Source of the DNA: Ensifer adhaerens
Lineage (GTDB): Bacteria > Pseudomonadota > Alphaproteobacteria > Rhizobiales > Rhizobiaceae
Direction: 5' to 3'
DNA length: 64,000 bases
Assembly (NCBI RefSeq): GCF_002007205.1
Contig: NZ_LAZS01000012.1
Span: 620,001-684,000 of the forward strand
The notes beneath the pieces are model-generated. The model made no database searches. It was given only the letters and a program-made list of their open reading frames with translations, and was not told the origin of the DNA. Of the stretch, positions 10,149 to 59,359 are shown one piece after another; positions within the stretch are counted from its first letter, which is position 1, and the number at the start of each line of letters is the position of its first letter. Both the position numbers and the translations under genes were made by a program.

Positions 10149-10464
10149 TGATCTCGTGAATCCGGCGCTGACGGTGATTGCCGGATCCCGCGCCGAAGGC
10201 TTTTCCGAGCTGCTGGTGAGCGACGAGAATCAATGGCTCGTCGGTCGTCGGAAGGCGAGGAATGGAGATCATTCTTGTGCTCCATGGAATGGCTGGCGGC
10301 CGAAAAGATAGTGGCCCGGCGTGTCCGCGGCTTGAATGTAAAGTCGGCTTTTTGTCGAAAGCGCTTAGAATGGTCGCCCGTGATCATCCACGGCGATCGG
10401 GCAGCGCTTGCGGCTGCACGTCGGCTCCCGGCTTCGTGGGAGAAGATCGAAGAAGCGTCGAACG
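10149..10464. other. Gap without a confident gene
   Basis: This 316-base stretch lies between the left duplicated segment and the patatin gene. Short frames on both strands look weakly coding near 10150-10270, which may be a decayed gene, but no family can be named. Confidence 0.4.
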
Positions 10465-11715: not shown

Positions 11716-11760
11716 CGCCCTCTGCTCCTCCATCACGATCTCCTGCCGATCCTCGATTTT

Positions 11761-39978: not shown

Positions 39979-40021
39979 TCTCGGAACGGGATCTCAAAAC
40001 ACAATCATGGAGGAGGAGAAC

Positions 40022-41305: not shown

Positions 41306-41379
41306 GCATCCGCTCTGCTTTGCTGAGCCGCGCGGGAAGTCATCTTTCCCGCGCAGCAATGTTCGAACGGAAGCCTTAG

Positions 41380-43245: not shown

Positions 43246-43285
43246 CCCCTTCACCGATCTTCCCGCAAAGACCGAAAGACCTGAT

Positions 43286-44122
43286 ATGACGATTACCGAT
43301 TTCACTTCCCGCCATGCCATCGACCCGCTCGCCGCCGCCGCGATGGGGACGGACGAATTGCGCCACAACTTCCAGATTGCCGGTCTCTTCGAGAGCGATC
43401 GCGTCAATCTCACCTACACCCATTACGATCGCATGGTGGTCGGCGGGGCGATGCCGGTCGAGACCGAATTGACGCTCGAAGCCATCAAGCCGATGGGCAC
43501 GAAGACGTTTCTCGAGCGCCGCGAGTTGATCGCCGTCAACATCGGCGGGCCGGGGCGCGCCGTCGTTTCAGGCAAGAGCCATCCGCTCGCTGCGCGCGAC
43601 ATGATCTATGTCGGCATGGGCGAGGAGGTGACGTTCGTATCGGACAGTCGGGCAGCGCCGGCAAAGTTCTACCTGTTGTCCGCCCCGGCGCACCGTGCCT
43701 TCCCGACGGCACTTTTGACCATTGCCGGGGCCAAGCGCCTCGATCTCGGCAGTCTGGAGACGTCGAACGAGCGCTCGATCTTCCAGTTCACCAATGGGAT
43801 CGAGACCTGCCAGCTGGTCGTCGGCATGACGGAACTCAAGAAGGGGTCGGTGTGGAACACCATGCCGGCGCATATCCATGACCGGCGCATGGAGGTGTAT
43901 CTCTATTTCGATCTTCCCGAGCCGGCGCGGGTCTTCCATTTCCTCGGCGAGCCGTCCGAGACGCGCCATATTGTCATGGCCAGCGAGGAGGCCGTGTTGT
44001 CACCGGTCTGGTCGATCCACTCTGGCTGCGGCACCTCCAACTACGCCTTCATCTGGGCAATGGCCGGCGACAATGTCGATTACACCGACGCCGACCCGGT
44101 GCCGATGGAGACGCTGCGATGA
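43286..44122 (+). CDS. kduI: 4-deoxy-L-threo-5-hexosulose-uronate ketol-isomerase
   Basis: This gene encodes 278 residues, the same length as E. coli KduI. The zinc site of the cupin barrel is seen in NTMPAHIHDRRMEVYLYFDL (His, His, Glu), with a further His towards the end in WSIHSGCGTSNYAFIWAM. The enzyme converts 4-deoxy-5-keto-uronate, formed from unsaturated uronate, into 3-deoxy-D-glycero-2,5-hexodiulosonate. The ATG at 43286 is selected on family length. It overlaps kduD by four bases. Confidence 0.96.
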   Translation: MTITDFTSRHAIDPLAAAAMGTDELRHNFQIAGLFESDRVNLTYTHYDRMVVGGAMPVETELTLEAIKPMGTKTFLERRELIAVNIGGPGRAVVSGKSHPLAARDMIYVGMGEEVTFVSDSRAAPAKFYLLSAPAHRAFPTALLTIAGAKRLDLGSLETSNERSIFQFTNGIETCQLVVGMTELKKGSVWNTMPAHIHDRRMEVYLYFDLPEPARVFHFLGEPSETRHIVMASEEAVLSPVWSIHSGCGTSNYAFIWAMAGDNVDYTDADPVPMETLR

Positions 44123-44883
44123 GTGATCTCTCCGCTTTTAGCCTTGACGGAAAGCGTGTGCTGGTCACCGGCGCCAACACAGGCATCGGCCAGGGCATAG
44201 CAGTGTCGATCGGCCGTGCCGGCGGTGAGGTGGTCGCGGTCGGGCGCTCGTCGATGGCCGAGACGGTGGGAAAGGTCGAAGCGGTGGGCGGCCGGGTCGT
44301 ACCGGTCGCTTGCGATCTTGCCGATGGAGACGCGGTCAAGAGGTTGATCGACCGGGTCTCGGACGAATGCGGACCGCTGAGCGGATTGGTCAACAATGCC
44401 GGCATCATCCGCCGCGCCGCCTCGGTCGAACTTTCGGAGGCGGACTGGGACGAGGTGCTCGACCTGAACCTGAAGGCGGCGTTTCTCCTGAGCCAGGCCT
44501 ATGGCCGCAGGCTTCTTGCCGAAAAGCGGGAAGGGCGGATCGTCAACATCGCCTCGCTGTTATCCTTCCAGGGCGGCATTCGCGTCGCCTCCTACACGGC
44601 ATCAAAACACGGAGTACTCGGTATCACCCGCATTCTCGCCAATGAATGGGCAAGTCAGAATATCAACGTCAACGCGATCGCGCCCGGATACATCGTCTCC
44701 AACAACACCGAGGCGCTGCGCGCGGACATCGATCGCAATGCTGCGATCCTTGAGCGCATCCCCGCCGGACGCTGGGGAACGCCCGACGATATCGGCGACG
44801 CTGCCGTTTTCCTGCTCGCGCCGGCGTCGCGCTACATGCATGGCGCCGTCATCCCCGTGGATGGAGGGTGGCTAGCGCGATGA
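44119..44883 (+). CDS. kduD: 2-dehydro-3-deoxy-D-gluconate 5-dehydrogenase (SDR)
   Basis: This gene encodes 254 residues of the classical short-chain dehydrogenase family: cofactor loop VTGANTGIGQGIA, NNAG, the Ser in IASLLSFQGG and YTASKHG with catalytic Tyr and Lys. KduD reduces the KduI product to 2-keto-3-deoxygluconate (KDG) with NAD(P)H. No KDG kinase or aldolase is encoded in the window, so these must act from elsewhere in the genome. It is the last gene of the operon and is followed by a strong hairpin. Confidence 0.94.
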   Translation: MSDLSAFSLDGKRVLVTGANTGIGQGIAVSIGRAGGEVVAVGRSSMAETVGKVEAVGGRVVPVACDLADGDAVKRLIDRVSDECGPLSGLVNNAGIIRRAASVELSEADWDEVLDLNLKAAFLLSQAYGRRLLAEKREGRIVNIASLLSFQGGIRVASYTASKHGVLGITRILANEWASQNINVNAIAPGYIVSNNTEALRADIDRNAAILERIPAGRWGTPDDIGDAAVFLLAPASRYMHGAVIPVDGGWLAR

Positions 44884-45350: not shown

Positions 45351-46580
45351 TTAGTGGGTTGCGCCCGATCCCCCGGCTGCGACGATGGCGAAGGGTTGGC
45401 CTTCGACCGCGATCGAGCGGGTTTCCTTCAGCGTTTCCGTATCGATCAGGCGCACCAGGCTTTGGCGCGGGTCGGTGACGGCGAGATGGTTGCCGGCAAC
45501 GGCCAGGCGCGGCCTCGCGTCGCGCCAGTGGCCATCCTTGCTGTAGGGCTCCGTCACCGTCTCCGATTTGGTTATCACCCCATCCACGACGTCGAGGAGA
45601 TGAAGCTTGCCGTCCTCCGTCAGCACGTATGCGTTGCGTGACTTTGCTGGGTCGAGGATGAAGTCCACGCGCCGCAATGGCAGTTCTACGAGGCGGTAGG
45701 GCTCCTTCGCATCGGCATCGATCAGGACAACCTTGTCTTCTCCGTAGTTTCCAAGGAAGAACTGCATGGAGGTACCGCCAAGCAGCGTCGATACCTTGCC
45801 TTCCGGCAGCTTGTCGCCATAGGCGAGCATCTCGAGCTTGGGGCCGCCGAGCCCGCCCGGACGTGCGACCAGGACACCTTCCGCGCAGCCGAAGGCGACC
45901 AGGCGCGCGGACGTCGCTTCACCATGCAGCCCCGTGCAGGTCGCGACATCGCCGACCTGCTTGCCCTCCTTGTCGAGGACACGCAGACCCAAGCGGGGCG
46001 GAAGCTCACCTTCCTTTACCGTCGCCTCCAGGTTCGGGACCGAAACGAGAAGATGGTTGCCGGTCGAAACCGCGACGCCATGATGCGCGGCGGTCGTGTC
46101 ATAAGCCTTGAGTTCCGCCTTGTCGTCCAACAGTGCACTCTCGCGAAGCAGATCGAACTTACCGCCGCGGTCGTAGAAAATGGCGAGATCGTCGCCATGG
46201 GCAACGACGTGACCCGGCTTTTCCCCCCGGATGGTCGTCTTGAGAAGCCTGGGGTCCTTGACGTCGATATCGCGGTGCTCGCCGTGATCGGAAAATGCGA
46301 TGCCCGTGTCGATGGCATGGATCAGGTTCTGTTCGCCCTGGACGGCAAAGACCGTGCGCCCGGTCTCGCTCAAGGAAAGGGCGGCGTAGCCTTCGAGATC
46401 AAAACGGCTGATTTCCTTGCCCGTTTCCAGATCGATGGCGCGGACCACCGGCTTGCTGTGGTCGGCAACAAACAGCCGCCAGGTTGCGCGCTCTTCTTCT
46501 TCGGCATGAGACGTCAATGGAAAGGCGAGGGGTGCCAAAATGGTGGTCGCGAATAGGACGGACAAACCGAAGCGGGACAT
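45351..46580 (-). CDS. aztD: Zinc metallochaperone AztD, orphan copy
   Basis: This gene encodes 409 residues from the ATG at 46580, with TAGGAG upstream. A signal peptide (LSVLFATTILAPLAFPLTSHA) leads to a periplasmic beta-propeller with repeated WRLFVADHSKPVVRAIDLETG-like blades. Features of AztD are the His-rich DHGEHRD and AAHHGVAVSTG segments and two Cys in TCTGLHGEATSARLVAFGC. AztD delivers zinc to the binding protein AztC of the AztABC importer; those genes are absent here. Zur-like repeats lie in its promoter. Confidence 0.9.
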   Translation of the reverse strand: MSRFGLSVLFATTILAPLAFPLTSHAEEEERATWRLFVADHSKPVVRAIDLETGKEISRFDLEGYAALSLSETGRTVFAVQGEQNLIHAIDTGIAFSDHGEHRDIDVKDPRLLKTTIRGEKPGHVVAHGDDLAIFYDRGGKFDLLRESALLDDKAELKAYDTTAAHHGVAVSTGNHLLVSVPNLEATVKEGELPPRLGLRVLDKEGKQVGDVATCTGLHGEATSARLVAFGCAEGVLVARPGGLGGPKLEMLAYGDKLPEGKVSTLLGGTSMQFFLGNYGEDKVVLIDADAKEPYRLVELPLRRVDFILDPAKSRNAYVLTEDGKLHLLDVVDGVITKSETVTEPYSKDGHWRDARPRLAVAGNHLAVTDPRQSLVRLIDTETLKETRSIAVEGQPFAIVAAGGSGATH

Positions 46581-46593
46581 GAAATCTCCTATA

Positions 46594-46630
46594 ATGTAAT
46601 AACGTAACATCGTTGTGTTATAGCGTTACA
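46594..46630 (-). promoter_or_regulatory. Tandem Zur-like repeats before aztD
   Basis: ATGTAATAACGTAACAT (46594-46610) and TGTTATAGCGTTACA (46616-46630) are imperfect palindromes about two helical turns apart, immediately upstream of the aztD ribosome binding site. Both resemble the AT-rich TGTTAT...ATAACA boxes bound by Zur in alphaproteobacteria. The assignment depends on the AztD context. Confidence 0.5.
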
Positions 46631-46779: not shown

Positions 46780-46793
46780 TGGTAACGTTCCCA
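46780..46793 (+). promoter_or_regulatory. LacI-type operator upstream of the ADP-ribosylglycohydrolase operon regulator
   Basis: TGGTAACGTTCCCA lies 49 bases before the regulator ATG. It differs by one base from the perfect palindrome TGGGAACGTTCCCA found at 47942-47955. A central CG dyad is typical of LacI-family operators, and the position fits autoregulation. Confidence 0.6.
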
Positions 46794-46841
46794 CGAGCTT
46801 AAGGGCCATCGCTGTAGGCGGCTTTCGGCCCGGGAGGAAGC

Positions 46842-47891
46842 ATGAAGAACGGACCCAGGCAACGGGCCACCATCATCGATGTTGCAGAGCGGGCAGGGGT
46901 CTCGAAGAGCACGGTTGCGCGCGTTCTCGCCGGGTCCGCCAGCATTTCCGACGAGGCCCGTGATCGGGTGCTGAAAGCCGTTGCGGCCACCGGTTATGAA
47001 CGCAACCATCTGGCCGTCGGTATGCGCTCGGGGCGCAGCGGCCTGCTCGGCCTGGTCATTCCCGATATCACCAACCCCTTCTGGGCCGAAGTCGCCCGCG
47101 GCGCCCAGGATCGTGCGGCGAAGGACGACATTTCGCTTCTCGTCTTCTCGTCTGACTGGGATGCCGGCAAGGAGGCGACGCATCTTCGCGCCCTGCGGCG
47201 AGCCCGCGTCGATGGCGCGATCATCAATCCGGTCGCCGACAATTTCGATGATCTCGATCGCTTCGGCTTGCCCTTCGTTTTCATCGGGTCGAGCGCCGAG
47301 CGCTTCCCCGATACCTTGAGCGTCGGCTCGGATATCGCCCAGGCGGTCCGTCTCGGCATGGACATCCTTGTCGAGCGCGGGCATCCGGCGCCGGCCCTGA
47401 TGCTCGGTCCGCGGTCGCGTCTCGCACGTGCCCGGTTCCTGCGCGCCGTGCACGAGCACTGCGTCGCGCGCGACATCGATCCGGAAATCTTGCCGGTCGA
47501 GGAATCCGACTACACGGTCGAGGGCGGCCGAAAGGCCATGGGGCGCTTGCTCGCCGGGCCGTGGAGAGGCAGTCGCGCCGTGTTCGTCGCCAACGATCTG
47601 ATGGCGCTCGGCGCGATGATCGCCGTTCGCGAGGCGGGGCTCCGGTGCCCGGAGGATATTTCCATCCTCGGCTTCGACGGCATTCCGGCGGGAGCTTTCT
47701 CGTGGCCGGGGCTGACGACGATCGAAAAGCCAGGCCGGCAGATCGGTATTCGTGCGGTCGAATGCCTGCTCGATCAGATTGCAGGCCGCCCGGAACAGGG
47801 ACGGATTTTTCTGCCGTGCCGACTGGTCGAGCGCGGCTCGCTTGCCGACGTTTCGGCCGCGGCACCCGCACGCGCGGCGGCAGGGAGGTAG
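46842..47891 (+). CDS. LacI-family regulator heading the ADP-ribosylglycohydrolase/ABC operon
   Basis: This gene encodes 349 residues. The headpiece is TIIDVAERAGVSKSTVARVLAGSASISDEARDRVLKAVAATGYE, followed by the effector domain (LLGLVIPDITNPFWAEVARGAQDRA, FVANDLMALGAMIAVREAGLRCPEDISILGFD). GGGAGG-type purines lie upstream. It precedes the first permease gene by three bases, so it is probably co-transcribed. Near-identical operator sequences lie before it and inside the permease gene. The effector is presumably the unknown imported glycoside or a derivative. Confidence 0.95.
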   Translation: MKNGPRQRATIIDVAERAGVSKSTVARVLAGSASISDEARDRVLKAVAATGYERNHLAVGMRSGRSGLLGLVIPDITNPFWAEVARGAQDRAAKDDISLLVFSSDWDAGKEATHLRALRRARVDGAIINPVADNFDDLDRFGLPFVFIGSSAERFPDTLSVGSDIAQAVRLGMDILVERGHPAPALMLGPRSRLARARFLRAVHEHCVARDIDPEILPVEESDYTVEGGRKAMGRLLAGPWRGSRAVFVANDLMALGAMIAVREAGLRCPEDISILGFDGIPAGAFSWPGLTTIEKPGRQIGIRAVECLLDQIAGRPEQGRIFLPCRLVERGSLADVSAAAPARAAAGR

Positions 47892-47894
47892 ACA

Positions 47895-48860
47895 ATGACG
47901 GTAAGCAACGAACTTGTGACAGAGGCAGCCATACCACGAGATGGGAACGTTCCCAACATTCGGCGGCGGAGCGTCACCAAAGGCGTGCGGCAATGGTGGC
48001 CCTATTACCTGATGATGGCGCCCGGCCTGATCTTCTTCGTGATCTTCCACTATTTCCCGATCTGGGAAGCCAAGATCGCCTTTGAACAACTGCGCATCAT
48101 CCCGCCGAACATCTGGGTCGGGATCAAGCATTTCCAAACGCTGTTCTCCTCGCCGATCTTCTGGCAGGTGCTTGTCAACACGCTGATCATCTCGACGATG
48201 AAGATCGTCTTCGTCTTCCCGATCCCGATCATCGTTGCGCTCCTGCTCAACGAGATCCGGGGCGGCGCTTTCCGGAAATTTATCCAGTCGGCGATCTACT
48301 TGCCGCATTTTCTTTCTTGGGTGGTTATTGCAGGCGTGTTCATCGCAGTGCTTTCGCCAAGCGACGGCGCGGTCAATGACATCATCGGCTTCTTCGGACT
48401 GCAGCCGGTCTCCTTCATGACCGACACCGGCTCGATCCGCTGGGTGCTGGTCTTCTCGGAGATCTGGCGCTCCGCCGGTTGGGACAGTCTGCTTTATCTC
48501 GCCGCCATCATCGCCATTGACCAGGAGCTCTATGACGCAGCCGAGATCGACGGCGCCAACCGCTGGCAGAAGATCCGTTACGTCACCATTCCCGGCATCG
48601 TGCCGACGATCGCGACGCTGTTCATCCTGAATGCCGGCATGTTCCTGAACGCCGACCTCAACCAGGTGATCAACTTCTCCAACGACGTGGTGCGCAGCAA
48701 GATCGATATCATCGACACCTATGTCTACCGCATCGGCCTGCAGACCGGCGAGTATTCCCTGGCAACGGCCGCCGGCCTCTTCAAGGCGGTGCTCGGCATG
48801 CTGATGATCGTCGCCGCCCACCTTCTTTCCAAACGTCTTACCGGCAAGGGGGTATGGTGA
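47895..48860 (+). CDS. ABC transporter permease (LplB/CUT1 type) of the ADP-ribosylglycohydrolase operon
   Basis: This gene encodes 321 residues from the ATG at 47895, which has GGGAGG at the right distance. The first 34 residues are polar, then six helices follow (YYLMMAPGLIFFVIFHYFP onwards). The EAA loop is YDAAEIDGANRWQKIRYVTIPGIVPTIATLF. It resembles LplB/YtcP permeases used for oligosaccharides and related compounds. A perfect LacI-type operator lies within codons 16-21. Confidence 0.94.
   Translation: MTVSNELVTEAAIPRDGNVPNIRRRSVTKGVRQWWPYYLMMAPGLIFFVIFHYFPIWEAKIAFEQLRIIPPNIWVGIKHFQTLFSSPIFWQVLVNTLIISTMKIVFVFPIPIIVALLLNEIRGGAFRKFIQSAIYLPHFLSWVVIAGVFIAVLSPSDGAVNDIIGFFGLQPVSFMTDTGSIRWVLVFSEIWRSAGWDSLLYLAAIIAIDQELYDAAEIDGANRWQKIRYVTIPGIVPTIATLFILNAGMFLNADLNQVINFSNDVVRSKIDIIDTYVYRIGLQTGEYSLATAAGLFKAVLGMLMIVAAHLLSKRLTGKGVW
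47942..47955 (+). promoter_or_regulatory. Perfect LacI-type operator inside the first permease gene
   Basis: TGGGAACGTTCCCA is a perfect 14-base palindrome within the coding sequence, 47 bases past the start codon. It matches the site before the regulator (46780-46793) at 13 of 14 bases. The two sites are about 1.16 kb apart and could cooperate by looping or block elongation. Confidence 0.6.
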
Positions 48861-49762
48861 TGGCCGCCCACAACGTCCGCAGAACGCCGCTCGAGCGGCT
48901 TGAATATGCGATCATCGTCTCGACGCTCATGTTCCTCGTCGTGCTGACGGTCCAGCCGCTGCTCAATCTGCTCGCCATCTCATTTTCGGATCCGGGCAAG
49001 GTTGCCGGCATGAGCGGCCTGACGGTCGTCCCCAACGGGTTTTCGACAGAGGTCTGGAACCTGCTGATCAACAATTCGGCCGTCCAGCGCGGCCTCCTGA
49101 ACTCGATCTTCATTACCCTGGTCAGCACCGTCCTTGGCGTCGTGCTGACGGCCTTGATGGCCTGGGCGCTCTCGCGCCCGGGACTGCCGGGTCGGCGCGC
49201 CATCTTCGTATTCGTGCTGGTGACGATCGTGTTCGAGCCCGGCATCATCCCGGACTATTTCATCAACAAGCGTCTCGGCCTCATCGACAGCTACTGGTCG
49301 CTGATCCTCTTCAAGGTCGTCAACGCCTGGTACCTGATCATCCTCGTTCGCTTCTTCGAGGAAGTACCGAAGGAACTGATCGAGGCATCCGAACTCGATG
49401 GCGCCAATCCGTTCCAGATCTTCTGGTACGTGGCGCTGCCGCTTGCCAAATCGGCGCTTGCGACCATCGCGCTCTTCTATTTCGTCTTCCACTGGAACGA
49501 GTTTTTCCGCGCGATGATCTACCTCAACGACCAGTCCAAGTGGCCGCTGCAGGTGGTGCTGCGCCAGTTCGTGGTCGAGGGCGACAAGCTTGCCATGGTC
49601 GGGGTGGTCGACAGCAACAATTACACCGGTGCCAGCCAGATCAACATTCGGGCGCTCAAGGCCGGCATGATCCTGCTCACCATCGCACCGATCCTCGCGA
49701 TCTACCCACTCATTCTGAAGTTCTTCACCAAGGGCACCATGAGCGGTGCGCTGAAGGGCTGA
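48860..49762 (+). CDS. ABC transporter permease (LplC/YtcP type)
   Basis: The product is 300 residues from the ATG at 48860, which overlaps the preceding stop (TGATG) and has AAGGGGG at good distance; the ATG at 48854 is too near that site. Six helices are present and the EAA loop is IEASELDGANPFQIFWYVALPLAKSALATIALFYFVFHWNEFF. It pairs with the preceding permease. Confidence 0.94.
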   Translation: MAAHNVRRTPLERLEYAIIVSTLMFLVVLTVQPLLNLLAISFSDPGKVAGMSGLTVVPNGFSTEVWNLLINNSAVQRGLLNSIFITLVSTVLGVVLTALMAWALSRPGLPGRRAIFVFVLVTIVFEPGIIPDYFINKRLGLIDSYWSLILFKVVNAWYLIILVRFFEEVPKELIEASELDGANPFQIFWYVALPLAKSALATIALFYFVFHWNEFFRAMIYLNDQSKWPLQVVLRQFVVEGDKLAMVGVVDSNNYTGASQINIRALKAGMILLTIAPILAIYPLILKFFTKGTMSGALKG

Positions 49763-49811
49763 CGATGTTGAACCGAACCATAAAAGCCAAAGCACTCTGG
49801 GAGGAACAAAC

Positions 49812-51233
49812 ATGCTTGGAAAACTGATCCTTGGCGCAACCACCGCCATGGCATTGATGGCGAGCGTCGCCATGCCCGCCTTCGCCGATCCGGTGACGAT
49901 CCGCGTCGTCTCGAAGGATCTCACGACGAGCAATCCTGACGACGTGAAGCTGATGAAGGCCTATGAGGAGGCGCTGAAGGCCAAGGGCACCGACATCCAT
50001 ATCCAGGTCGTCGACCTGCCGTCCTCTGGCTATGCCGACAAGCTCAGCGCCATGCTTCTGTCCGGTGATATCCCCGATCTCATCTATTTCCAGGGCGGCG
50101 ACGCCAAGATGGCCGAACAGGGCGTGCTGGAGGACTGGAACACCTGGCTGCCGAAGACGACCTATCTCAAGGACGCGCTCTTCCCGCACAATGTCGAGCG
50201 TCTGAAGAACTATCCCTACCTGCTCTATGTCTATCCGCCGCGCATTCCGCAGCCGGTCATCCGCACGGACTGGCTGGAGAAATCGGGTGTTGCGGCGCCG
50301 AAGACGACCGACGACTACGTCTCCCTCTTCAAGGCGATCAAGGACGGTGACTTCGACGGCAACGGCAAGGCCGACAGCTACGGCGTTACCACAGCCGACA
50401 ACACCCAGGAGCTCGATGCCATCTTCAACCAGGCCTTCGGCGTGACCGGCACCTGGCTGAAGAACGAAGCCGGCGAATGGGTCCATGCCCGCGTTTCCTC
50501 AGCGGAAAAGGCGAAGATCGCCTTCTACGCATCGCTGCGCGAGCAGGGCCTTTATGATCCGGAATTCATCACCACCAAGTGGGACGTGAAGGAGGACAAG
50601 TTCTATTCCGGCCGTGCCGGCGTGATCTTCGGTTCCTCCGCAGAGGTCCTCGACATCTATGGCGGCAAGATGCGTCAGGCCCATGCGGACGTGAGCTTGA
50701 GCCTGTTGTCGCCGCCCAAGGGGCCGGCCGGCCAGGGCCTGATGGCGCTCGACGTTTCCAAGGAAGCACGCGGGCTCGCGATCGCGACGACGTCCGAGCA
50801 CAAGGAAGAGGTGGTCAAGCTGCTCGACTTCATCGCCAGCCCCGAGGGCCAGGCGATCGAACGCCTCGGCTTCGAGGGCGAGCAGTACACCAAGGACGGC
50901 GAGACGATCAAACCGACCGACAAGCTCGCAACCTGGTATGCCCGCTTCCTGGTTGCCGCCAACTGGCAGCCGCCGGTTCAATGGCTGAGCGAGGCGGCAC
51001 AGCAATCGCTGAAGACGATCTCGGCCGACTTCAAGCCGGACAATGCTTTCGTCTGGCCTGCCGAATACGCCACCGACATCGATGCCACCGAAAACGTCTA
51101 CCGGGCCTGGGTCTACAAGTTCGTCTCCGGCGAAGCCAAGATGGACCAATGGGACCAGTTCGTTTCCGAATGGAACGCTGCCGGCGGCGAGAAAATGACC
51201 GAATATGCAAGGACGGTTCTCAATGACAAATGA
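49812..51233 (+). CDS. ABC transporter substrate-binding protein (LipO/family 1)
   Basis: This gene encodes 473 residues with a Sec signal peptide at about 1-25 (ILGATTAMALMASVAMPAFA). The mature protein belongs to the family-1 binding proteins used with LplB/LplC permeases (KLSAMLLSGDIPDLIYFQGGDAKMAEQGVLEDW). A segment DGDFDGNGKADSYGVTT is a calcium-binding-like loop. It overlaps the first ADP-ribosylglycohydrolase gene by 11 bases, tying uptake to that enzyme. The ligand is unknown; no characterised relative is evident. Confidence 0.93.
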   Translation: MLGKLILGATTAMALMASVAMPAFADPVTIRVVSKDLTTSNPDDVKLMKAYEEALKAKGTDIHIQVVDLPSSGYADKLSAMLLSGDIPDLIYFQGGDAKMAEQGVLEDWNTWLPKTTYLKDALFPHNVERLKNYPYLLYVYPPRIPQPVIRTDWLEKSGVAAPKTTDDYVSLFKAIKDGDFDGNGKADSYGVTTADNTQELDAIFNQAFGVTGTWLKNEAGEWVHARVSSAEKAKIAFYASLREQGLYDPEFITTKWDVKEDKFYSGRAGVIFGSSAEVLDIYGGKMRQAHADVSLSLLSPPKGPAGQGLMALDVSKEARGLAIATTSEHKEEVVKLLDFIASPEGQAIERLGFEGEQYTKDGETIKPTDKLATWYARFLVAANWQPPVQWLSEAAQQSLKTISADFKPDNAFVWPAEYATDIDATENVYRAWVYKFVSGEAKMDQWDQFVSEWNAAGGEKMTEYARTVLNDK

Positions 51234-52428
51234 TGCTGCAGGGCTCTCCCTTCGGGGAAGGGTTCGGGCGCTTCTCTTTGGCGTCGCCTACGGCGACGCC
51301 ATCGGGGCGCCGGTCGAAAAACTCTCCGCCGCGGAAATCCGCGAGCGCTATGGCCGGGTGACGTCGCTCGATACCGAGTGGCACCGCATGAAGCAGAACG
51401 ACGCGGCCCGCAACGGCCGCGTCCGAGGCGGCGGCATCGTCACCGACGATACGCTGATGACCCTTTGCGTCATGTCGATCTACGACGACGTCAAGCGCCA
51501 CCTCGATGCCTGGGACATGGCCTCGGGCATGGTGCGGGAGATCGCGTGGACGCCACGCTGGGTGCCGGAGCTGCAGCGCGAGACGATGCTGATCGAGCGC
51601 CTGTTCTATCCGGAGAAGTGGATCTTCCAGCGCCATCAGCTTTCCGGCTGTGACCCGCGCCAGGGCGGCGTCGGCAACATGGTGAACTGCGGTGCGGCGA
51701 TGTATATCGCGCCGATCGGCGTCGCCAACGCCTGTGATCCGAAGGCGGCCTATGACGAGGCGATTGCCTTTGCTTCCGGCCACCAGCAGAGCTTCGGCCT
51801 GGAGGCCGCCGGCGTGCTCGCCGCTGCCGTGGCCGCCGCTTTCGTGCCGGGGACCACGCTTGACACCGTCATCGAAGAGGCGCTTGCCGTCGCCAAGGAC
51901 GGAACGCGTGATGCGATCGCCGATATCGTCGAGGCTGCGCGCACCCTGAAGGGTGCCGACCATCCGACGGTCGTCGCCGAATTTCACCGGATCATCGCCC
52001 GCTATTCGCCGATGGGCAACGACGTCCAGCACACGCCGCAGAAGGCTGGCATTGCCACCGACGCCTACCAGCCGTCGCGTCTGCACGCGATCGAGGAATT
52101 GCCGCTGGCGCTCGGCTTTGCCGTCGTCAATGACGGCGATTTCTACAAGACGATCGTCGACGGCATCAATTCCGGCCGCGACACGGATTCGATCGGCGTC
52201 ATGGCCGGCGCGATCCTCGGCGCCATGCAGGGCGAAAGCATCATCGACCGGTCGATGGCCTCCCAGCTCGACCGCGTCAACAGGCTCGATCTCTTCGGCG
52301 CCGCCGATGCCTTCACCGAAACGGTGACCGCAATCCAATCGGCTGACCGCAAACGCGAAACGGCGCGCGCGCAGGCGCGCGCAGGGCTCTTTTCAACGCC
52401 CGAACTCACCCAGGTTTCCAGTCTCTAG
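51223..52428 (+). CDS. ADP-ribosylglycohydrolase family protein 1
   Basis: The product is 401 residues from the ATG at 51223, inside the end of the binding-protein gene. The dinuclear-magnesium signatures are complete: GVAYGDAIGAP near residue 20, IVTDDTLMTL at about 80 and NSGRDTDSIGVMAGAILGAM at about 325. Family members remove ADP-ribose or other N/O-linked ribosyl groups from proteins or small molecules. There is no signal peptide. Its location inside a sugar-type ABC operon suggests that it cleaves an imported glycosyl conjugate rather than modified protein; this is inference. Confidence 0.93.
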   Translation: MTNDAAGLSLRGRVRALLFGVAYGDAIGAPVEKLSAAEIRERYGRVTSLDTEWHRMKQNDAARNGRVRGGGIVTDDTLMTLCVMSIYDDVKRHLDAWDMASGMVREIAWTPRWVPELQRETMLIERLFYPEKWIFQRHQLSGCDPRQGGVGNMVNCGAAMYIAPIGVANACDPKAAYDEAIAFASGHQQSFGLEAAGVLAAAVAAAFVPGTTLDTVIEEALAVAKDGTRDAIADIVEAARTLKGADHPTVVAEFHRIIARYSPMGNDVQHTPQKAGIATDAYQPSRLHAIEELPLALGFAVVNDGDFYKTIVDGINSGRDTDSIGVMAGAILGAMQGESIIDRSMASQLDRVNRLDLFGAADAFTETVTAIQSADRKRETARAQARAGLFSTPELTQVSSL

Positions 52429-52444
52429 AATTCGAAAGTATCCG

Positions 52445-54544
52445 ATGCTCAGCACCACAGAAATCTTCGAGCGCATCTATTCCGGCTTCATCGGCAAGGC
52501 GATCGGCGTGCGCTTGGGCGCACCCGTCGAGCCGACGATCTGGAGCTATGAACGCATCCGGGACACCTATGGCGAGGTGACGGAATATCTGCGCGATTTC
52601 AAGAATTTCGCCGCTGATGACGACACCAACGGTCCGGTCTACTTCATCCGGGCGCTGCGCGATTACGGCCTCGGCGCGACGGCCGAGGAGGTCGGCAAGA
52701 CCTGGCTGAACTATGCGGCCGAGGAACACGGCATGTATTGGTGGGGCGGCTTCGGCAACTCGACCGAACATACCGCCTACCAGAACCTGCGCGCCGGCAT
52801 CCCGGCGCCGCAATCCGGCTCGATCGCCCAGAACGGCACCACCGTCGCCGAGCAGATCGGCGGTCAGATCTTTATCGACAGCTGGGGCTGGGTGCATCCG
52901 GCCGACCCGAAGAAGGCTGCCGAAGCCTCAGCCCGTGCGGCAAGTGTCGCCCATGACGGCGAGGGCCTACACGGCGCCCGCTTCTGCGCCGCGGCCATCG
53001 CCCAAGCCTTTGTTGCCAAGAACATCGAGGACGTGATCGAGACGGGCCTCGCGACGATCCCGACCGACTCCCTTTATGCCAAGGTTTCGCGCGCGGTACT
53101 CCGCTTCCACGACGGCAACCGGAACGACTGGCGTGCCTGCCGCGACATGCTGACGGCGGATTGGGGCTACGACCGCTATCCCGGCGTCTGCCACATCATT
53201 CCGAATGCCGGCGTCTTGATCATGAGCCTGATCTACGGCCAGGGTGATCTGCCGCGCACCGTCGAGATCGCCACCATGGCCGGCTGGGACACGGACTGCA
53301 ACGCCGGCAATGCCGGTGCGATCGTCGGCACCCTCCAGCAGGTGCAGCCGGGCTGGGACAAGTACCGCAAGCCGATCAACGATTTCGTCGTCGCTTCCGG
53401 CGTAACCGGTACGGTCAACGTCGTCGACATCCCCTCCTTTGCGCGCGAACTGACCGTGCTGGCGCTCCGTCTGCAGGAGCGGGAAGCACCGGCCCTCTGG
53501 GTCGAGGATTTCGAGCGGCGCGGCGTTCGCTTCGATTTTGACGCGCCCGGCGCCACCCATGGGTTCCGCACCGAGCCGTTCAACCAGATCGCCGTCAAGG
53601 CATCGGCGGAGCGCCACACGGAGAACGCCAAGGGATCGCTGGAAATCCTGCTCGACCGGCTCGAGCGCGGCCACGGCGGGCGCATCTTCTGGAAGCCCTT
53701 CTATCGCCGCTCCGACTTCGACGACGAGCGCTATCGCCCGATGTTCACGCCGCTTGCCGACGACGGCCAGACGGTGACGTTCAAGCTGTGGCTCGACCCT
53801 TGGAACGGTGACGGAAATCTGCGTGTGGCGCCTTACGTCCGTCGCGCCATGAGCGGCACCATCCAGGAAACCGGCGCCTGGCACGTGCCTTCGGCCAGCG
53901 GCTGGCAGGACTACGCGTTCACTATCCCCGACGGCAATGGCGAGGCGGTCGACGAGATCGGCATTCTGGTCGAATATTTCGGGCGCCTGAAATTCCTCGG
54001 TCGGCTGTTCCTTGCCGACTTCTCCGTTTCCGGCAAGGGCCGCGCCGTCATCGACCCGGCGAAAGAAGCGCATGAATGGGGCGGCATCACCCGCTTCACC
54101 TGGAACCGCGGCCATTGGAGCCTGCAGCAGGGTCGTATTCATGCCCATACTGCCACTGACGCGGATGCCTGGACCGGCAACGCCTATCTCCGCGACGTCA
54201 GTGTCAAGGCCGAGCTTCAGCCGCACTCGGGTGCCTCGCACCTGGTGGTGGCCCGGGCTCAGGGCACGAGCCGCTTTTATGCCGCCGGTTTCGAGAACGG
54301 CGAAGCCGTGATCCTTCTTGAAGACCACGGCACGAAGATCCTCGCGCGCAGCCCGTTCCGTATCGAATACGGCCGGAGCTACGCGGTCGATCTCACTGTC
54401 GAAGGCGGCAAGCTGACGCTTTCCGTCGATGGCGAGCGGGTGCTTCAGGCGGACGATGCGACGCTGCGCTACGGCATGGCTGGCCTTCGCATGGCCTCTG
54501 CCGGGCGCATGTCGATCGGCCGGCTTGAGGTCGCCGAGCGCTAA
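52445..54544 (+). CDS. ADP-ribosylglycohydrolase family protein 2 with C-terminal beta-rich extension
   Basis: This gene encodes 699 residues. The N-terminal 340 residues carry a variant of the family signatures: GFIGKAIGVRLGAPVE (Lys where the first protein has Asp), AADDDTNGPVYFI and MAGWDTDCNAGNAGAIVG. The C-terminal 340 residues are beta-rich, with W-rich segments such as WHVPSASGWQDYAF and YAVDLTVEGGKLTLSVDGERVLQ that resemble LamG/carbohydrate-binding folds. No signal peptide is seen. It follows the first such gene by 16 bases. The two proteins are distant, so they probably act at different bonds or steps. Confidence 0.9.
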   Translation: MLSTTEIFERIYSGFIGKAIGVRLGAPVEPTIWSYERIRDTYGEVTEYLRDFKNFAADDDTNGPVYFIRALRDYGLGATAEEVGKTWLNYAAEEHGMYWWGGFGNSTEHTAYQNLRAGIPAPQSGSIAQNGTTVAEQIGGQIFIDSWGWVHPADPKKAAEASARAASVAHDGEGLHGARFCAAAIAQAFVAKNIEDVIETGLATIPTDSLYAKVSRAVLRFHDGNRNDWRACRDMLTADWGYDRYPGVCHIIPNAGVLIMSLIYGQGDLPRTVEIATMAGWDTDCNAGNAGAIVGTLQQVQPGWDKYRKPINDFVVASGVTGTVNVVDIPSFARELTVLALRLQEREAPALWVEDFERRGVRFDFDAPGATHGFRTEPFNQIAVKASAERHTENAKGSLEILLDRLERGHGGRIFWKPFYRRSDFDDERYRPMFTPLADDGQTVTFKLWLDPWNGDGNLRVAPYVRRAMSGTIQETGAWHVPSASGWQDYAFTIPDGNGEAVDEIGILVEYFGRLKFLGRLFLADFSVSGKGRAVIDPAKEAHEWGGITRFTWNRGHWSLQQGRIHAHTATDADAWTGNAYLRDVSVKAELQPHSGASHLVVARAQGTSRFYAAGFENGEAVILLEDHGTKILARSPFRIEYGRSYAVDLTVEGGKLTLSVDGERVLQADDATLRYGMAGLRMASAGRMSIGRLEVAER

Positions 54545-54574
54545 CTGGGCGAGGCGGAAAGAAAGGGAGGAAAC

Positions 54575-55624
54575 ATGTCCGAGATAGAGCTTAGAAGCGT
54601 TGGCAAGAGCTATGGCAGTGTAGCCGTGCTCAACGACATTTCGCTGGAAATGGGCAATGGTGAATTCGTCGTGCTTGTCGGCCCTTCGGGCTGCGGCAAG
54701 TCCACGCTGTTGCGCATGATCGCCGGGCTGGAGGACATCTCCGCCGGCGAGATCACCATCGGCGGCAAGGTCGTCAACGACATGCCGGCAAAGGAGCGTG
54801 ACATCGCCATGGTCTTCCAGTCTTACGCGCTCTATCCGCACATGAAGGTCTCGGAAAACATGAGCTTCGCGCTGAAGCTTGCCGGCGCGCCGAAGGCGGA
54901 GATCCAGAAACGCGTGAGTGAGGCGGCCGAGATCCTCGGCTTGGAAAAGCTGCTCGACCGCCTGCCGCGGGAGCTCTCCGGCGGCCAACGCCAGCGTGTC
55001 GCCATGGGGCGTGCCATCGTGCGCGACCCGCGCGCCTTCCTGTTCGACGAGCCGCTGTCGAACCTCGACGCCAAGCTGCGCGTGAAGATGCGCGGTGAAA
55101 TCAAGAAGCTGCACCAGCGGCTGCGCCGGACGATGGTCTATGTCACGCACGATCAGACCGAGGCCATGACAATGGCCGACAAGATCGTGGTGATGAACGG
55201 CGGCAGGATAGAACAGGCGGGGGCGCCGCTCGACCTCTACAACGATCCCGCCAACCTCTTCGTTGCCGGCTTCATCGGTTCGCCGGAGATCAACCTCATC
55301 GAGACGATCGCCGAGGGCGAGACGGCGTTGACGCGCGGCGGGGTCTCGCTGCCGCTTGGCAGGCGGGTGCAGCCGGGAACGCGGGTCGTCTGCGGCATCC
55401 GCCCGCAACACATCACGCTCGGCACAACCGGCGTGCCGGGCCGCATCAGCCTGGTCGAGCCGACCGGCGAGGATCAGGAAATCGTCGTCGATATGGGCGG
55501 GGAGGACATCTCGGTCGTCGTCCATGGCGGCAAGCTGCTATCGGCCGGGCAGGACGTGATGCTTGATATCGACGCCGACAAGGTTCTGCTCTTCGACAAG
55601 GACACCGGGGAGCGCCTTCGATGA
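54575..55624 (+). CDS. ABC transporter ATP-binding protein (UgpC/MsmK type)
   Basis: This gene encodes 349 residues with Walker [10 protein letters not shown], signature [16 protein letters not shown], Walker [13 protein letters not shown] and VTHDQTEAM, plus the MalK-type C-terminal domain (FIGSPEINLIETI, GIRPQHITLG). A GGGAGG site precedes the ATG. It lies between the hydrolases and the CoA-transferase, overlapping the latter by four bases, which binds the catabolic genes into one transcript with the transporter. Confidence 0.95.
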   Translation: MSEIELRSVGKSYGSVAVLNDISLEMGNGEFVVLVGPSGCGKSTLLRMIAGLEDISAGEITIGGKVVNDMPAKERDIAMVFQSYALYPHMKVSENMSFALKLAGAPKAEIQKRVSEAAEILGLEKLLDRLPRELSGGQRQRVAMGRAIVRDPRAFLFDEPLSNLDAKLRVKMRGEIKKLHQRLRRTMVYVTHDQTEAMTMADKIVVMNGGRIEQAGAPLDLYNDPANLFVAGFIGSPEINLIETIAEGETALTRGGVSLPLGRRVQPGTRVVCGIRPQHITLGTTGVPGRISLVEPTGEDQEIVVDMGGEDISVVVHGGKLLSAGQDVMLDIDADKVLLFDKDTGERLR

Positions 55625-56838
55625 GTGGATTTGCGAAGCGACAGTTCGATCCCGACGCCAAGGGGCCGCTTGTCGGCACAAGGGTTCTGGATCTTTCCCG
55701 TCTCGTTGCCGGCAACATGCTGTCGCTGCAGCTTGCGGATGCCGGCGCCGACGTCATCAAGATCGAGCCGCCGGCCGGCGATCCGCTCAGGGACTGGAAG
55801 GACGACGGCCATTCGCTCTATTGGAAGACCTATAGCCGCAACAAGCGCTCCGTCGTCCTGAACCTCAGGCATGAGCCGGCCATGGCAGCGCTCTGGGCGC
55901 TGATCGAAACGGCCGACGTCTTTATCGAGAATTTCCGGCCGGGAACGCTGGAGCGCATGGGGCTTTCGCCGGAAGCGCTGCACGCCCGCAATCCCAATCT
56001 CATCATTGTGCGCATCTCCGGTTTCGGCCAGACCGGCCCCTATGCACAGTTCCCCGGCTTCGGCACGATCGTCGAAGGCATGAGCGGCTTTGCCTTCAGA
56101 ACGGGCTTTCCCGACCGGGAACCGGTTCTGCCGCCGCTGGCGCTCGCCGACATGATTGCCGGCGTCTATGGCAGCTCGGCCACCGTGACAGCGTTGCTTG
56201 CGCGCGATCGCGGCTACGCAAAAGGACAGGTCATCGACCTGTCGCTGCTGGAACCGATGTTCTCGGTGCTTGGCCCCGAAGCGGCGATCTATCAGACGAC
56301 CGGCAAGATCAAGGAGCGCGTGGGCAGCGCCTCCAATACGGCCGCGCCCCGCAATGTCTACCGCTGCCGCGACGGAAAGTACGTGGCGCTGTCCGGATCG
56401 ACGCCACAGGTCGCACGGAGGATCTTCGAGATCATCGGCCGTGCCGACATGAACGCGGATCCACGCTTCGCCACCAATTCGGAGCGCGTCAGGAACCGCG
56501 AACTTGTCGACGAGGCCGTTGGCGGCTGGTTTGCCCGGCACGACCATGACGAGGCGCTGAAGATCATGCGTGACGCCGGCGCGACGGTCGGACCGATCTA
56601 CAATATCGCAGATGCCGCGTCGGACCCGCATTTCGCCGAGCGCGAAATCATCGTCGATGTCGAGGATGACGAGTTCGGCAGCCTGCCGATGCACAACATC
56701 GTGCCGCGGCTTTCCCAGACGCCGGGCGTCTGGCGGCGGCCGGCACCAGCGCTTGGGGAACACACGGCGGAAGTTCTGGCCGAAGCGGGACTGGATCGCG
56801 GCGCGATCGAGACGATACTCCAGGGTAAAGCCGCATGA
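55621..56838 (+). CDS. Class III CoA-transferase (CaiB/BaiF family)
   Basis: This gene encodes 405 residues. Features are VLDLSRLVAGNMLSLQLADAGADVIKIEPP at the start, NKRSVVLNL and the active-site Asp in LALADMIAGVYGSSATV at about 178. These enzymes move CoA between carboxylic acids through an aspartyl-CoA thioester. It overlaps both the ATPase gene and the lyase gene by four bases. With the lyase that follows, it probably activates a dicarboxylic or hydroxy-acid released from the imported compound. Confidence 0.94.
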   Translation: MSGFAKRQFDPDAKGPLVGTRVLDLSRLVAGNMLSLQLADAGADVIKIEPPAGDPLRDWKDDGHSLYWKTYSRNKRSVVLNLRHEPAMAALWALIETADVFIENFRPGTLERMGLSPEALHARNPNLIIVRISGFGQTGPYAQFPGFGTIVEGMSGFAFRTGFPDREPVLPPLALADMIAGVYGSSATVTALLARDRGYAKGQVIDLSLLEPMFSVLGPEAAIYQTTGKIKERVGSASNTAAPRNVYRCRDGKYVALSGSTPQVARRIFEIIGRADMNADPRFATNSERVRNRELVDEAVGGWFARHDHDEALKIMRDAGATVGPIYNIADAASDPHFAEREIIVDVEDDEFGSLPMHNIVPRLSQTPGVWRRPAPALGEHTAEVLAEAGLDRGAIETILQGKAA

Positions 56839-57686
56839 GGCTTCGCTCCCTACTCTACGTCCCGGCCTCGTCCGCAAAATTCATCGCCAAGGCGCACGAA
56901 CGCGGAGCGGATGCGATCATCCTCGACCTGGAAGATTCAGTCGCCCCGGATCAGAAACAGGCCGCAAGGGATGGGTTGAAGGACGCCGTGGCGCAGGTGG
57001 CACGCGGTGGTGCGACCGTCTTTGTCCGCATCAATTCGGCGCCGGATCTGCGGATGGCGGATGCAGAGGCCGCCTGCCGTGCCGGCGCGTTCGGTCTCTA
57101 TGTCGCGAAAACCCGGTCGCCGCAGGAGCTAGAGGATATTGCAGCGCATCTCGCACCAGTTGAGCGGCAGATCGGCAGGCCGCCGGTCGCCTTCGTGCCA
57201 CTCCTCGAAGATGCCGGGGCAGTTCTCGATGCGCGCGCGATTGCCCGCGTCAGCCGCGTGGTCGGCCTTGCCGCTGGCGGCGAAGACATCGCGACCAGCA
57301 TGGGCGCAGAACCGCTGCCAGACGTATTGCGACTTCCGAAACTGATGGTCCACCTTGCCGCCAAGGCGGAAGGCAAGCTGTCCTTCGGCATGCTTTTGAC
57401 GGTTGCGGACTATAGGCGACTGGATGCCTTGAAGGCAGCCGCTCGTGAGGCGAAGGCCCATGGGTTCGATGGCGCGAGCTGCGTCCACCCGTCCGTGGTT
57501 CCGGTGCTGAACGCGTCCTATTCCCCGAGCGCAGAGCAGATTGCCTGGGCAAGGACCGTGATCGATGCAGCGCTGGCCGCTGAAGCGGAGGGGCAGGGCG
57601 CCTTCGCGCTGAACGGCACGATGGTCGACACGCCGATCATCGAACGCGCGCGCCATGTTCTCGAACAGGCAGGCGACCTTCGCTGA
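56835..57686 (+). CDS. CitE/HpcH-type CoA ester lyase
   Basis: This gene encodes 283 residues. The TIM-barrel signatures are LYVPASSAKFIAKAHERGADAIILDLEDSVAP, FVRINS, PLLEDAGAVLDARAI and FDGASCVHPSVV, with the metal-binding Glu and Asp conserved. Members cleave malyl-CoA, citramalyl-CoA or similar beta-hydroxyacyl-CoA to acetyl- or propionyl-CoA and a 2-oxo acid. It ends the operon. Pairing with a class III CoA-transferase is known from itaconate and methylaspartate-type routes; here the acid is unknown. Confidence 0.93.
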   Translation: MRLRSLLYVPASSAKFIAKAHERGADAIILDLEDSVAPDQKQAARDGLKDAVAQVARGGATVFVRINSAPDLRMADAEAACRAGAFGLYVAKTRSPQELEDIAAHLAPVERQIGRPPVAFVPLLEDAGAVLDARAIARVSRVVGLAAGGEDIATSMGAEPLPDVLRLPKLMVHLAAKAEGKLSFGMLLTVADYRRLDALKAAAREAKAHGFDGASCVHPSVVPVLNASYSPSAEQIAWARTVIDAALAAEAEGQGAFALNGTMVDTPIIERARHVLEQAGDLR

Positions 57687-57778: not shown

Positions 57779-59086
57779 TCAGAAACGTTCCGTGTCGAAG
57801 GTCTTCTTTTCCTTGCCGACCTGGGAGACACCTTTTTGAACGCGCCGCGTATCCTCGGCGCTTGCCACGGAGAGTTCCAGATTTGCCGGAAGAGCCAACC
57901 GCTCGAGATCCTTGGCCGGCGCCAGCGCCCATTTGAACAGCGCGGCATCGCGAATAGTCCATTCGGCTTTCGTGGGCGTCGGGCCGGTGAGGCTGGTTTC
58001 GTGCGCAGCCGGCGGCCGCATCATGCCCACGCCAAGCGCGACCTTGAACGACGAGGAGGGAATGAACGCGGAGACATTTGTGGGGAGACCACGCTCGGCA
58101 GCAACAGGAGCAGTACCGAGCGCGGCGGTGGCCGTGGCCGTGGCGCGGAGCGTCGGCAGCGGCACGGTGATCGCCGCAAGGTCGAAGAAGGGCGGTTTTT
58201 CGGCGGCCACCTTCCTTATGGTCTGAAGCTCGAGGGCTTCTTCTCCACGGCTCTTGCGCGTCGGAAGCATCGCAGTCAGCAGCGTGTTGCCGGAGGATTC
58301 GCCGTTCTTGAGTTTGGCCGTGCCGGCGCTGTTTGCAGCCACGATCGAGGTGGCCTTGACCCGTCGCTTGTAGTCGGCCATCGCCTGGTCATAACCCGGC
58401 AAAGCCCCGCCGCTGGCAGGAAGGTGGAGCGTCTGCCCCTTCGGGAAGATGCGGGCGAGCTCCTGGCGCGACATGCGCGGCCACGCCCGCACGTTTCCGA
58501 CGTCGAGATGCACGAAGGGAGATCCAGACGTGGGGTAATAACCCACGCCGCCGACCTGCATCTGCATGGCGATCTCCCGCAGTCGGGTGAGCTTCACGCC
58601 GGGGATGTAGAAGTCCATTGCCTTGCCCAGCATATGCTGGCTGTTCTTGGCGACCCCGGTGCTGCGCGAGCGGCCGCGCAGCATGCTGTTGGTGGCTGGC
58701 GAACGGTAGGCCGAGACGACGTTGATATAGTCCTTCGCACCGGCGCGCTGGTAGACCTCCCAGACGAGGTCGAGAAGGCGCGGGTCCATGCGGGCAGGCT
58801 CGTTCCTTCGCCAGTCGCGCAGGAAACGGTTGATCTGCGTGAGCCCCTTCTGGTCGTATTTGCCGTCGCGCTTGTAGGTGATCGTCGCGCGTTCGCCGGT
58901 ATGCGTGAAGAACAGCTTCAGTGACCGGACTTCTGCCGAAGACGCGGTGCTGGTGAAGGTGATCGTGGACGCTGCTATGGCCGCGGTCGCGGCGACTCTC
59001 GCAGCCCACCGGGCGATACGCTTCGCGGCCCTGCCGATAGCAGGCGAGGCAGGCTCTGGATACGCGGTTACAAGATACTCAGACAC
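57779..59086 (-). CDS. DUF882/YcbK-type murein peptidase-like protein
   Basis: The product is about 435 residues from a GTG at 59086; the start is uncertain. A basic N-terminus and hydrophobic helix (AATAAIAASTITFTSTASSA) act as signal or anchor. The peptidase M15-like zinc core has YRSPATNSMLRGRS, SQHMLGKAMDFYIPG and FVHLDVGNVRAWPR, supplying the His-Asp-His ligands. The C-terminal 200 residues are low-complexity and variable. It probably trims peptidoglycan cross-links in the periplasm. It is convergent with the lyase gene and not functionally tied to it. Confidence 0.88.
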   Translation of the reverse strand: MSEYLVTAYPEPASPAIGRAAKRIARWAARVAATAAIAASTITFTSTASSAEVRSLKLFFTHTGERATITYKRDGKYDQKGLTQINRFLRDWRRNEPARMDPRLLDLVWEVYQRAGAKDYINVVSAYRSPATNSMLRGRSRSTGVAKNSQHMLGKAMDFYIPGVKLTRLREIAMQMQVGGVGYYPTSGSPFVHLDVGNVRAWPRMSRQELARIFPKGQTLHLPASGGALPGYDQAMADYKRRVKATSIVAANSAGTAKLKNGESSGNTLLTAMLPTRKSRGEEALELQTIRKVAAEKPPFFDLAAITVPLPTLRATATATAALGTAPVAAERGLPTNVSAFIPSSSFKVALGVGMMRPPAAHETSLTGPTPTKAEWTIRDAALFKWALAPAKDLERLALPANLELSVASAEDTRRVQKGVSQVGKEKKTFDTERF

Positions 59087-59359
59087 GGCGGTTTCCGATT
59101 CAAACGAGGTACAATCCACCGGCGGCAACGGCCGGCGGCTCGGCTCTTCGACGGAGATTATGGTCAACAAAGGATTAAGAAGCGGTTGATGCCGCCAGCC
59201 GCACGTCCTGATGTCGGATTGTTTCCCTCGCCGGAAACGGAATTGCTGCCAAACCGTGCCCAAATTGCATCGCTGCGCCGGCCGGGTGGCGAGGCATGCG
59301 GCGGCAACGCCGTCATGCGTCGATCTTGCGGCGCGGCCTCTTCGCAGCCGGTCCGCTGG

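Follow-up and report, generated by a model that had tools for sequence, protein, structure and literature searches.

The Ensifer adhaerens DNA analysed here (contig NZ_LAZS01000012.1, positions 620,001 to 684,000; "the window" denotes this whole stretch of 64,000 nucleotides) carries a string of nine genes that we read as a LacI-controlled catabolic operon, in which an importer would take in a furanosyl conjugate of a beta-hydroxy acid, the conjugate would be cleaved, and the acid would be broken down in a coenzyme A (CoA)-dependent manner. We put the probability of this reading at about 0.55. Its computed basis consists of gene content, conservation, the operator, predicted folds, metal-site and catalytic residues, the grouping of the CaiB-type proteins and the alternation of two acid modules among relatives. 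In kind, the system would be a catabolic operon of the LacI/CUT1 type whose enzyme set is new. More tentatively, at somewhat below even odds, it may represent an undescribed carbon-source pathway that Alphaproteobacteria have in common with Firmicutes and many genomes of the Streptomyces order, in which proteins of the ADP-ribosylhydrolase fold act as nutrient furanosidases and the unrelated pairs CaiB+CitE and AtuA+DUF4387 are interchangeable.

The gene string occupies 46842-57686 on the + strand, from lacI to a CitE-type lyase gene, with neighbouring genes overlapping or separated by gaps of at most 49 bp. Families were assigned by Pfam and NCBIfam profile models, and all nine genes of the families named in a first-pass annotation were recovered at the positions it gave:

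46781..46792: LacI operator copy 1, GGTAACGTTCCC, 5' of lacI
46842..47891, + strand: LacI-family regulator (PF00356/PF13377)
47895..48860, + strand: CUT1 permease A (PF00528)
47943..47954: LacI operator copy 2, GGGAACGTTCCC, within the 5' end of the permease A gene (start called at 47895)
48854..49762, + strand: CUT1 permease B (PF00528)
49812..51233, + strand: CUT1 solute-binding protein, SBP (PF01547)
51223..52428 (open reading frame opens at 51205), + strand: hydrolase 1, ARH1 (PF03747, E 6.5e-43, 147.9 bits, cut-off 26.2)
52445..54544, + strand: hydrolase 2, ARH2 (PF03747, E 1.3e-49, 169.8 bits, cut-off 26.2)
54575..55624, + strand: UgpC/MalK-type importer ATPase (NF008653, 479.7 bits against a cut-off of 432)
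55621..56838, + strand: CaiB-type class III CoA-transferase (PF02515, E 4.9e-118, 394.8 bits)
56835..57686, + strand: CitE/HpcH-type CoA-ester lyase (PF03328, E 1.2e-31, 110.1 bits)

Two of the claimed overlaps required correction. Hydrolase 1 does start inside the SBP gene, but by about 11 bp and not 29, since the residue of the ATG at 51223 is the annotated start in three relatives (loci L024-L026) and the hydrolase 1 gene of Ensifer sp. PDNC004 (93% identical) overlaps its SBP gene by 11 bp; the start is probably this ATG rather than 51205. Both CoA genes had been said to overlap the ATPase gene, which holds for CaiB (4 bp), whereas CitE overlaps the CaiB gene, likewise by 4 bp. Profile models find a full CUT1 ATP-binding cassette importer, with two permeases, an extracellular SBP and a MalK/UgpC-type ATPase with TOBE; among the profile matches of the SBP are AlgQ1/AlgQ2 and further proteins that bind sugars or oligosaccharides.

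The two hydrolases are the only PF03747 genes found in the genome, and in predicted folds both keep the ADP-ribosylhydrolase fold. Known ADP-ribosylhydrolases cut ribosyl bonds, acting at ribofuranose. Alignments of 29 rows each were picked from 70 (ARH1) and 69 (ARH2) available sequences and inspected at the positions that, by analogy with ARH3/DraG, we take to form the two-metal site (Glu, Thr-Asp-Asp and Asp-x-Asp). ARH1 has E32, T74-D75-D76 and D320 in 29/29 rows and D322 in 28/29, and ARH2 has E29, D58-D60, D282 and D284 in 29/29, with Asp replacing the Thr of the family. ARH2 is composed of the ADP-ribosylhydrolase fold (residues 1-348), a beta-sandwich (about 355-530) and a third domain, residues 534-699, that is CBM66-like by sequence and fold similarity.

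Comparison of lacI upstream regions revealed a near-palindromic operator, GGTAACGTTCCC, with a second copy, GGGAACGTTCCC, and the exact pattern GGKAACGTTMCC. Exactly two sites of this pattern occur in the 6.87-Mb genome, at 46781-46792 and 47943-47954, flanking lacI. A reversed-pattern control also gives two sites in this genome, and 0-8 per genome of the genus, so the weight of the operator evidence lies in the position of the sites and not in their number. The operator pair is on the same contig as hydrolase 2 in 16/16 genus genomes, 14 of which have no extra exact site; the single extra sites in the other two (G014, G015) may be due to chance, given the control counts. Among the 47 loci whose LacI is more than 45% identical and for which 300 bp upstream are available (913,566 bases), copy 1 is present in 42 and copy 2 in 45, counts that describe the motif, which was derived from these same loci, and do not test it independently; no further exact site was found in those bases. 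Three Burkholderiales loci (L047, L055, L074) keep copy 2 and have no exact copy 1, and in L047 and L055 the gene after copy 2 encodes a GluP-type sugar symporter, so regulator, operator and hydrolase 1 stay linked even where the importer has been exchanged.

A sequence scan found no exact operator copy deeper within the operon and no sign of split regulation. Between 46600 and 57900 a consensus scan gave a single promoter-like site, located on the - strand, against an expected 1.8, and 15 terminator-like sites against an expected 8.2 +/- 2.9; every + strand terminator-like site falls within a coding region, and none of the sites appears to divide the operon. The idea that the genes form a single system has thus survived, as far as sequence can test it, the two findings that would have told against it, namely a gene order not conserved in relatives and regulation split between transporter and enzymes.

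Gene order is in fact kept well beyond close relatives. Gene content was determined by tblastn in 87 distinct loci, drawn from 80 loci of the genome collection and eight plasmid regions. Both hydrolases are present in 76 loci, hydrolase 1 only in nine, and a distant hydrolase 2 only in two. A complete acid module accompanies both hydrolases in 61/76 loci: CaiB+CitE in 35 loci of Proteobacteria and Actinobacteria and in two of Sporosarcina, and AtuA+DUF4387 in 24 loci of other Firmicutes. The two modules never occur together in the 87 loci, and none of the nine hydrolase-1-only loci has either, three of these nine ending directly after hydrolase 1 and therefore not open to judgement for hydrolase 2 or an acid module. 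The 834-kb plasmid of Ensifer sp. PDNC004 has the same nine genes in the same order (hydrolase 2 98% and hydrolase 1 93% identical), and Agrobacterium, Phyllobacterium and Nitratireductor share the order from LacI to the ATPase (hydrolase 1 80, 77 and 66% identical, respectively), as do many Devosia, in which CaiB and CitE are present as well. The system is found in 16/16 genomes of the genus; across the taxonomic order to which the window belongs it is sporadic, with hydrolase 1 (E <= 1e-60) in 5/297 genomes drawn, its own genome included.

Hydrolase 1 is far more frequent in the order to which the Streptomyces-type genome G334 belongs, where it occurs at the same threshold in 139/197 genomes. 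Twenty regions drawn from these 139 genomes have CaiB and CitE beside hydrolase 1 in 19 cases, a second hydrolase nearest ARH2 in 18 and a ribokinase in 14. The locus of G334 itself (L108) has four PF03747 genes in tandem (7442-12492), after which come CaiB and CitE genes and one for a PfkB kinase; the two additional hydrolases may widen the substrate range. It is flanked by a glutamate-synthase gene on one side and by lgt and trpA on the other, and no importer was recognised in it. L107 has a LacI-like gene and permease genes ahead of its hydrolases, and the gene at the place of the binding protein has no model match.

From these data we infer the substrate, ribose as its sugar, citramalate as the likeliest acid, the bond cut by each hydrolase and the chemistry of AtuA. 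The CUT1 importer would take in a beta-hydroxy acid conjugated to a furanose, most likely D-ribose, as a glycoside or a glycosyl ester. In the cytoplasm both enzymes of the ADP-ribosylhydrolase fold would act as nutrient glycosidases: hydrolase 1 would release ribose, and hydrolase 2, perhaps held to the substrate by its CBM66-like domain, would release the acid-bearing part. Ribose would pass through a ribokinase, presumably encoded elsewhere in this genome, to the pentose phosphate pathway. The CaiB enzyme would load the acid with CoA, and the 3-hydroxyacyl-CoA would then undergo a retro-Claisen-type split by the CitE enzyme to an acyl-CoA and an oxo acid; citramalate would yield acetyl-CoA and pyruvate. 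AtuA+DUF4387 takes the place of CaiB+CitE in most Firmicutes versions, perhaps for a CoA-free cleavage of the same acid.

It is also conceivable, but unlikely, that the operon scavenges nucleosides or ADP-ribose, the aglycone being a base or nucleotide fragment and CaiB and CitE handling a later product. The ribosyl-bond cleavage by known ADP-ribosylhydrolases would suit such a role. So would the E. coli yegTUV genes, which, in the passages of PMC10819704 that concern them, place a predicted ADP-ribosylglycohydrolase beside a sugar kinase and a nucleoside symporter, both likewise predicted. In the operon, however, the SBP belongs to the sugar/oligosaccharide type, and two Burkholderiales loci have a GluP-type sugar transporter. 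No base-degrading gene was found among the nine genes or the annotated shared neighbours, a set with some neighbours unannotated (clusters c13-c21, 4-7 loci each, apart from the partly recognised c15 permease and c21 LacI).

A co-location of two unconnected modules, with a sugar or riboside importer and its hydrolases sharing a transcript with an unrelated CaiB/CitE acid pair, is likewise improbable in our view. Several loci favour it: the acid pair is absent in relatives L023, L024, L025, L026 and L059, CaiB stands without CitE in L035-L038 and L058, and L164 has the acid pair with hydrolase 2 not detected. The CaiB tree speaks against it, since all 14 locus proteins, from three phyla, fall on one side of a branch with 100/99 support, with six true paralogues outside; these come from Ensifer, Sporosarcina and Streptomyces genomes and lie on long branches, and the tree has a midpoint root only. 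The sole "paralog" inside the locus group, L119, is the L108 locus gene itself. By this sequence grouping the locus CaiB is a dedicated lineage. The retention of CaiB+CitE in 19/20 Streptomyces-order regions argues in the same direction and, together with the tree, led us to set aside CaiB/CitE as a passing neighbour. Alternation of the acid modules, and their absence from the nine loci lacking hydrolase 2 (six of which extend far enough to be judged), also disfavour two separate modules. Finally, the genome holds just four PF02515 and four PF03328 matches, which makes a repeated chance neighbourhood unlikely.

The lyase has a less simple history. In the CitE tree no single origin emerges, the locus group (74/78 support) containing three phyla on long branches, in a sample that includes 2/4 non-locus lyases (L126 and L129 gave no tblastn hit). 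The Streptomyces L108 lyase scores best with RipC (143.8 bits, cut-off 375) and the Ensifer lyase with CitE; because of this difference and the shape of the tree, the lyase may have been exchanged, or CitE recruited more than once.

Both acid enzymes keep their presumed active sites. CaiB residues L175-A176-D177, including the Asp that we take to be catalytic, are invariant in 16/16 aligned rows (15 loci picked from 41, plus the window), and the lyase residues E33, D34, R65, E125 and D151, whose acidic and Arg side chains presumably have the roles known from this lyase superfamily, are invariant in 15/15. Neither enzyme reaches a named equivalog: for the CoA-transferase (succinate-glutarate, oxalate, mesaconate, carnitine) the best score is 271.9 bits against 750, and for the lyase the scores are 151 against 443.4 (citrate lyase beta subunit) and 106.3 against 375 (RipC citramalyl-CoA lyase). 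No hydratase or dehydrogenase was found among the nine genes or the annotated shared neighbours, and the acid is therefore expected to be already 3-hydroxy relative to the thioester, as are citramalate, malate, 3-hydroxy-3-methylglutarate (HMG) and citrate. Citramalate is our first choice, because such a route is not needed for malate or citrate, and HMG is usually split by a different lyase family. HMG may still be the acid, given that the locus CaiB is related to the human-type succinate-HMG CoA-transferase and that an HMG-like substrate has been named for AtuA. Conjugates of the bacillithiol type (glucosaminyl-malate), methanopterin-like ones (ribose and hydroxyglutarate), and nucleoside and TIR-signal conjugates were weighed as substrates against general knowledge and set aside.

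AtuA stands in place of CaiB/CitE in 24/28 Firmicutes loci (PF07287, E 3.2e-25 in L077). Should the reaction tentatively ascribed to AtuA hold, AtuA+DUF4387 could offer an alternative route for cleaving acids of the type handled by CaiB/CitE. In the Paenibacillus locus L079 the GntR regulator has its best scores with LldR, NanR, PdhR and GlcC, mostly regulators for small organic acids, none of them over the cut-off.

As to the sugar, a ribokinase-type gene accompanies 24/28 Firmicutes and 4/5 Actinobacteria loci. Ribokinase is the best model for all six locus kinases tested, with the TIGR02152 cut-off of 299.65 exceeded by L047, L077 and L086 and missed by L025, L057 and L107. Neighbouring ribokinases and family knowledge make ribose the most likely sugar. 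The same system acting on another furanose (apiose, arabinofuranose or fructofuranose) is very unlikely; the CBM66 of levanase reportedly binds terminal fructofuranosides and only 3/6 kinases reach the cut-off, but each of the six fits ribokinase best and the known hydrolases of this fold act at ribofuranose. Regulatory de-ADP-ribosylation of the DraG type, placed in a sugar operon by chance, shares the fold family and a weak hydrolase 1 match to the DraG model TIGR02662 (50.6 bits), and we reject it as highly improbable because that score is far under the cut-off of 337.05, no ADP-ribosyltransferase is present among the nine genes, hydrolase 2 bears carbohydrate-binding-like domains, and the linkage to importer and ribokinase extends across phyla.

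Several observations weigh against the reading of the operon as a pathway for a furanosyl conjugate of an acid. Of the 76 two-hydrolase loci, nine show no acid module, three of them ending at a contig edge, and in six, one of which also ends at such an edge, CaiB is not accompanied by CitE. In the Streptomyces order, L164 pairs CaiB+CitE with no detected second hydrolase and L166 contains just hydrolase 1; the link between hydrolase 2 and the acid pair is therefore not a strict one. The loci, picked by hydrolase similarity, come predominantly from Ensifer, Devosia and Paenibacillus and do not count as independent. With no CaiB or CitE equivalog cut-off reached, the proposed acid draws on general family chemistry. 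A ribokinase gene is absent from this operon and present in just 5/53 Proteobacteria loci, one of which (L034) shows a match of only 30%, upstream of lacI; the best ribokinase match in this genome, 295.6 bits, is just under the cut-off, and PfkB kinases may accept sugars besides ribose. The AtuA reaction is described as tentative in the relevant part of one paper (PMC4847356), and the relevant part of a review (PMC4097962) assigns that step to LiuE. The first-pass proposal of a glycosyl conjugate of an acid is accordingly sustained in part: it gains from the ribokinase linkage, the CBM66-like domain and the replacement by AtuA+DUF4387, and is weakened by relatives in which the acid pair is absent or incomplete, while its chemistry is still what we infer.

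Some further features of the loci and the window were recorded. In L035, L036, L037 and L038 (Sinorhizobium/Ensifer relatives) no CitE adjoins CaiB at the place following the CaiB gene (about position 15670). In Rhizobium sp. RCAM05350 (L030/L106) LacI and hydrolase 2 are annotated in parts, and hydrolase 1 and CaiB are split in tblastn; this broken copy reflects either decay or sequencing errors. L088 (2599-5460) has AtuA at the C-terminal end of a frame of 954 residues, the first 560 of which have no Pfam or NCBIfam match, and the long frame may be an artefact of the called start. In the window, a + strand cluster at 38896-44883 contains a MalK-type ATPase, a sugar-binding-protein-like gene, KduI (5-dehydro-4-deoxy-D-glucuronate isomerase, 391 bits against a cut-off of 250) and a frame that by eye resembles short-chain dehydrogenases/reductases, and looks like a pectin-fragment uptake operon. 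The divergent gene adjoining lacI upstream (45351-46610) matches the AztD zinc metallochaperone model (408.8 bits, cut-off 400), and the - strand gene downstream (57782-59263) is narrowly below the cut-off of the MepK peptidoglycan endopeptidase model (180.7 against 185).

With its core in three phyla, the operon is no single-strain oddity. This spread and the presence of hydrolase 1 in so many Streptomyces-order genomes suggest that the compound consumed may be common in soil and on roots. If the reading is true, a fold known from signalling has been turned to nutrition, the DUF4387 and AtuA proteins gain a function, and an unrecognised, widely available soil metabolite exists. The roles of AtuA/DUF4387, of the tandem ADP-ribosylhydrolases of Streptomyces and perhaps of E. 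coli yegTUV become testable, and the binding protein offers a direct handle for ligand fishing.

Among the matches listed from the open-access literature there is no description of an ADP-ribosylglycohydrolase with CaiB/CitE, AtuA or DUF4387, and the word DUF4387 is absent from the open-access literature searched. The itaconate/citramalate degradation pathways (Rip/Ict-Ich-Ccl) likewise employ a class III CoA-transferase and a CitE-type lyase; the window differs in having no hydratase among its nine genes and in equivalog cut-offs that are not reached. The Firmicutes loci contain a protein of the same family as AtuA, the acyclic terpene utilisation protein, but beside DUF4387, ribokinase and the hydrolases. 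In the levanase SacC (PDB 4b1m, 4azz) CBM66 is part of a levanase, whereas here the CBM66-like domain, putatively substrate-binding, is fused to an ADP-ribosylhydrolase domain. The window hydrolases differ from DraG, ARH3 and MJ1187 in a sequence far from the DraG model, in a genomic setting of carbon uptake and in the two added beta-sandwich domains of ARH2. The nearest published arrangement that we found is yegTUV of E. coli, the GgaR/YegW regulon, whose gene functions are described as not clear and which has no acid genes in the passages that describe it (PMC10819704). According to these, yegTUV comprises three genes with one hydrolase, a predicted nucleoside symporter, a GntR-family repressor and no CoA-transferase or lyase and, unlike the window operon, is linked to glycogen accumulation; its resemblance to the window operon lies in a repressor with a single target that controls a predicted ADP-ribosylglycohydrolase, a neighbouring transporter and a putative sugar kinase (PMC10819704).

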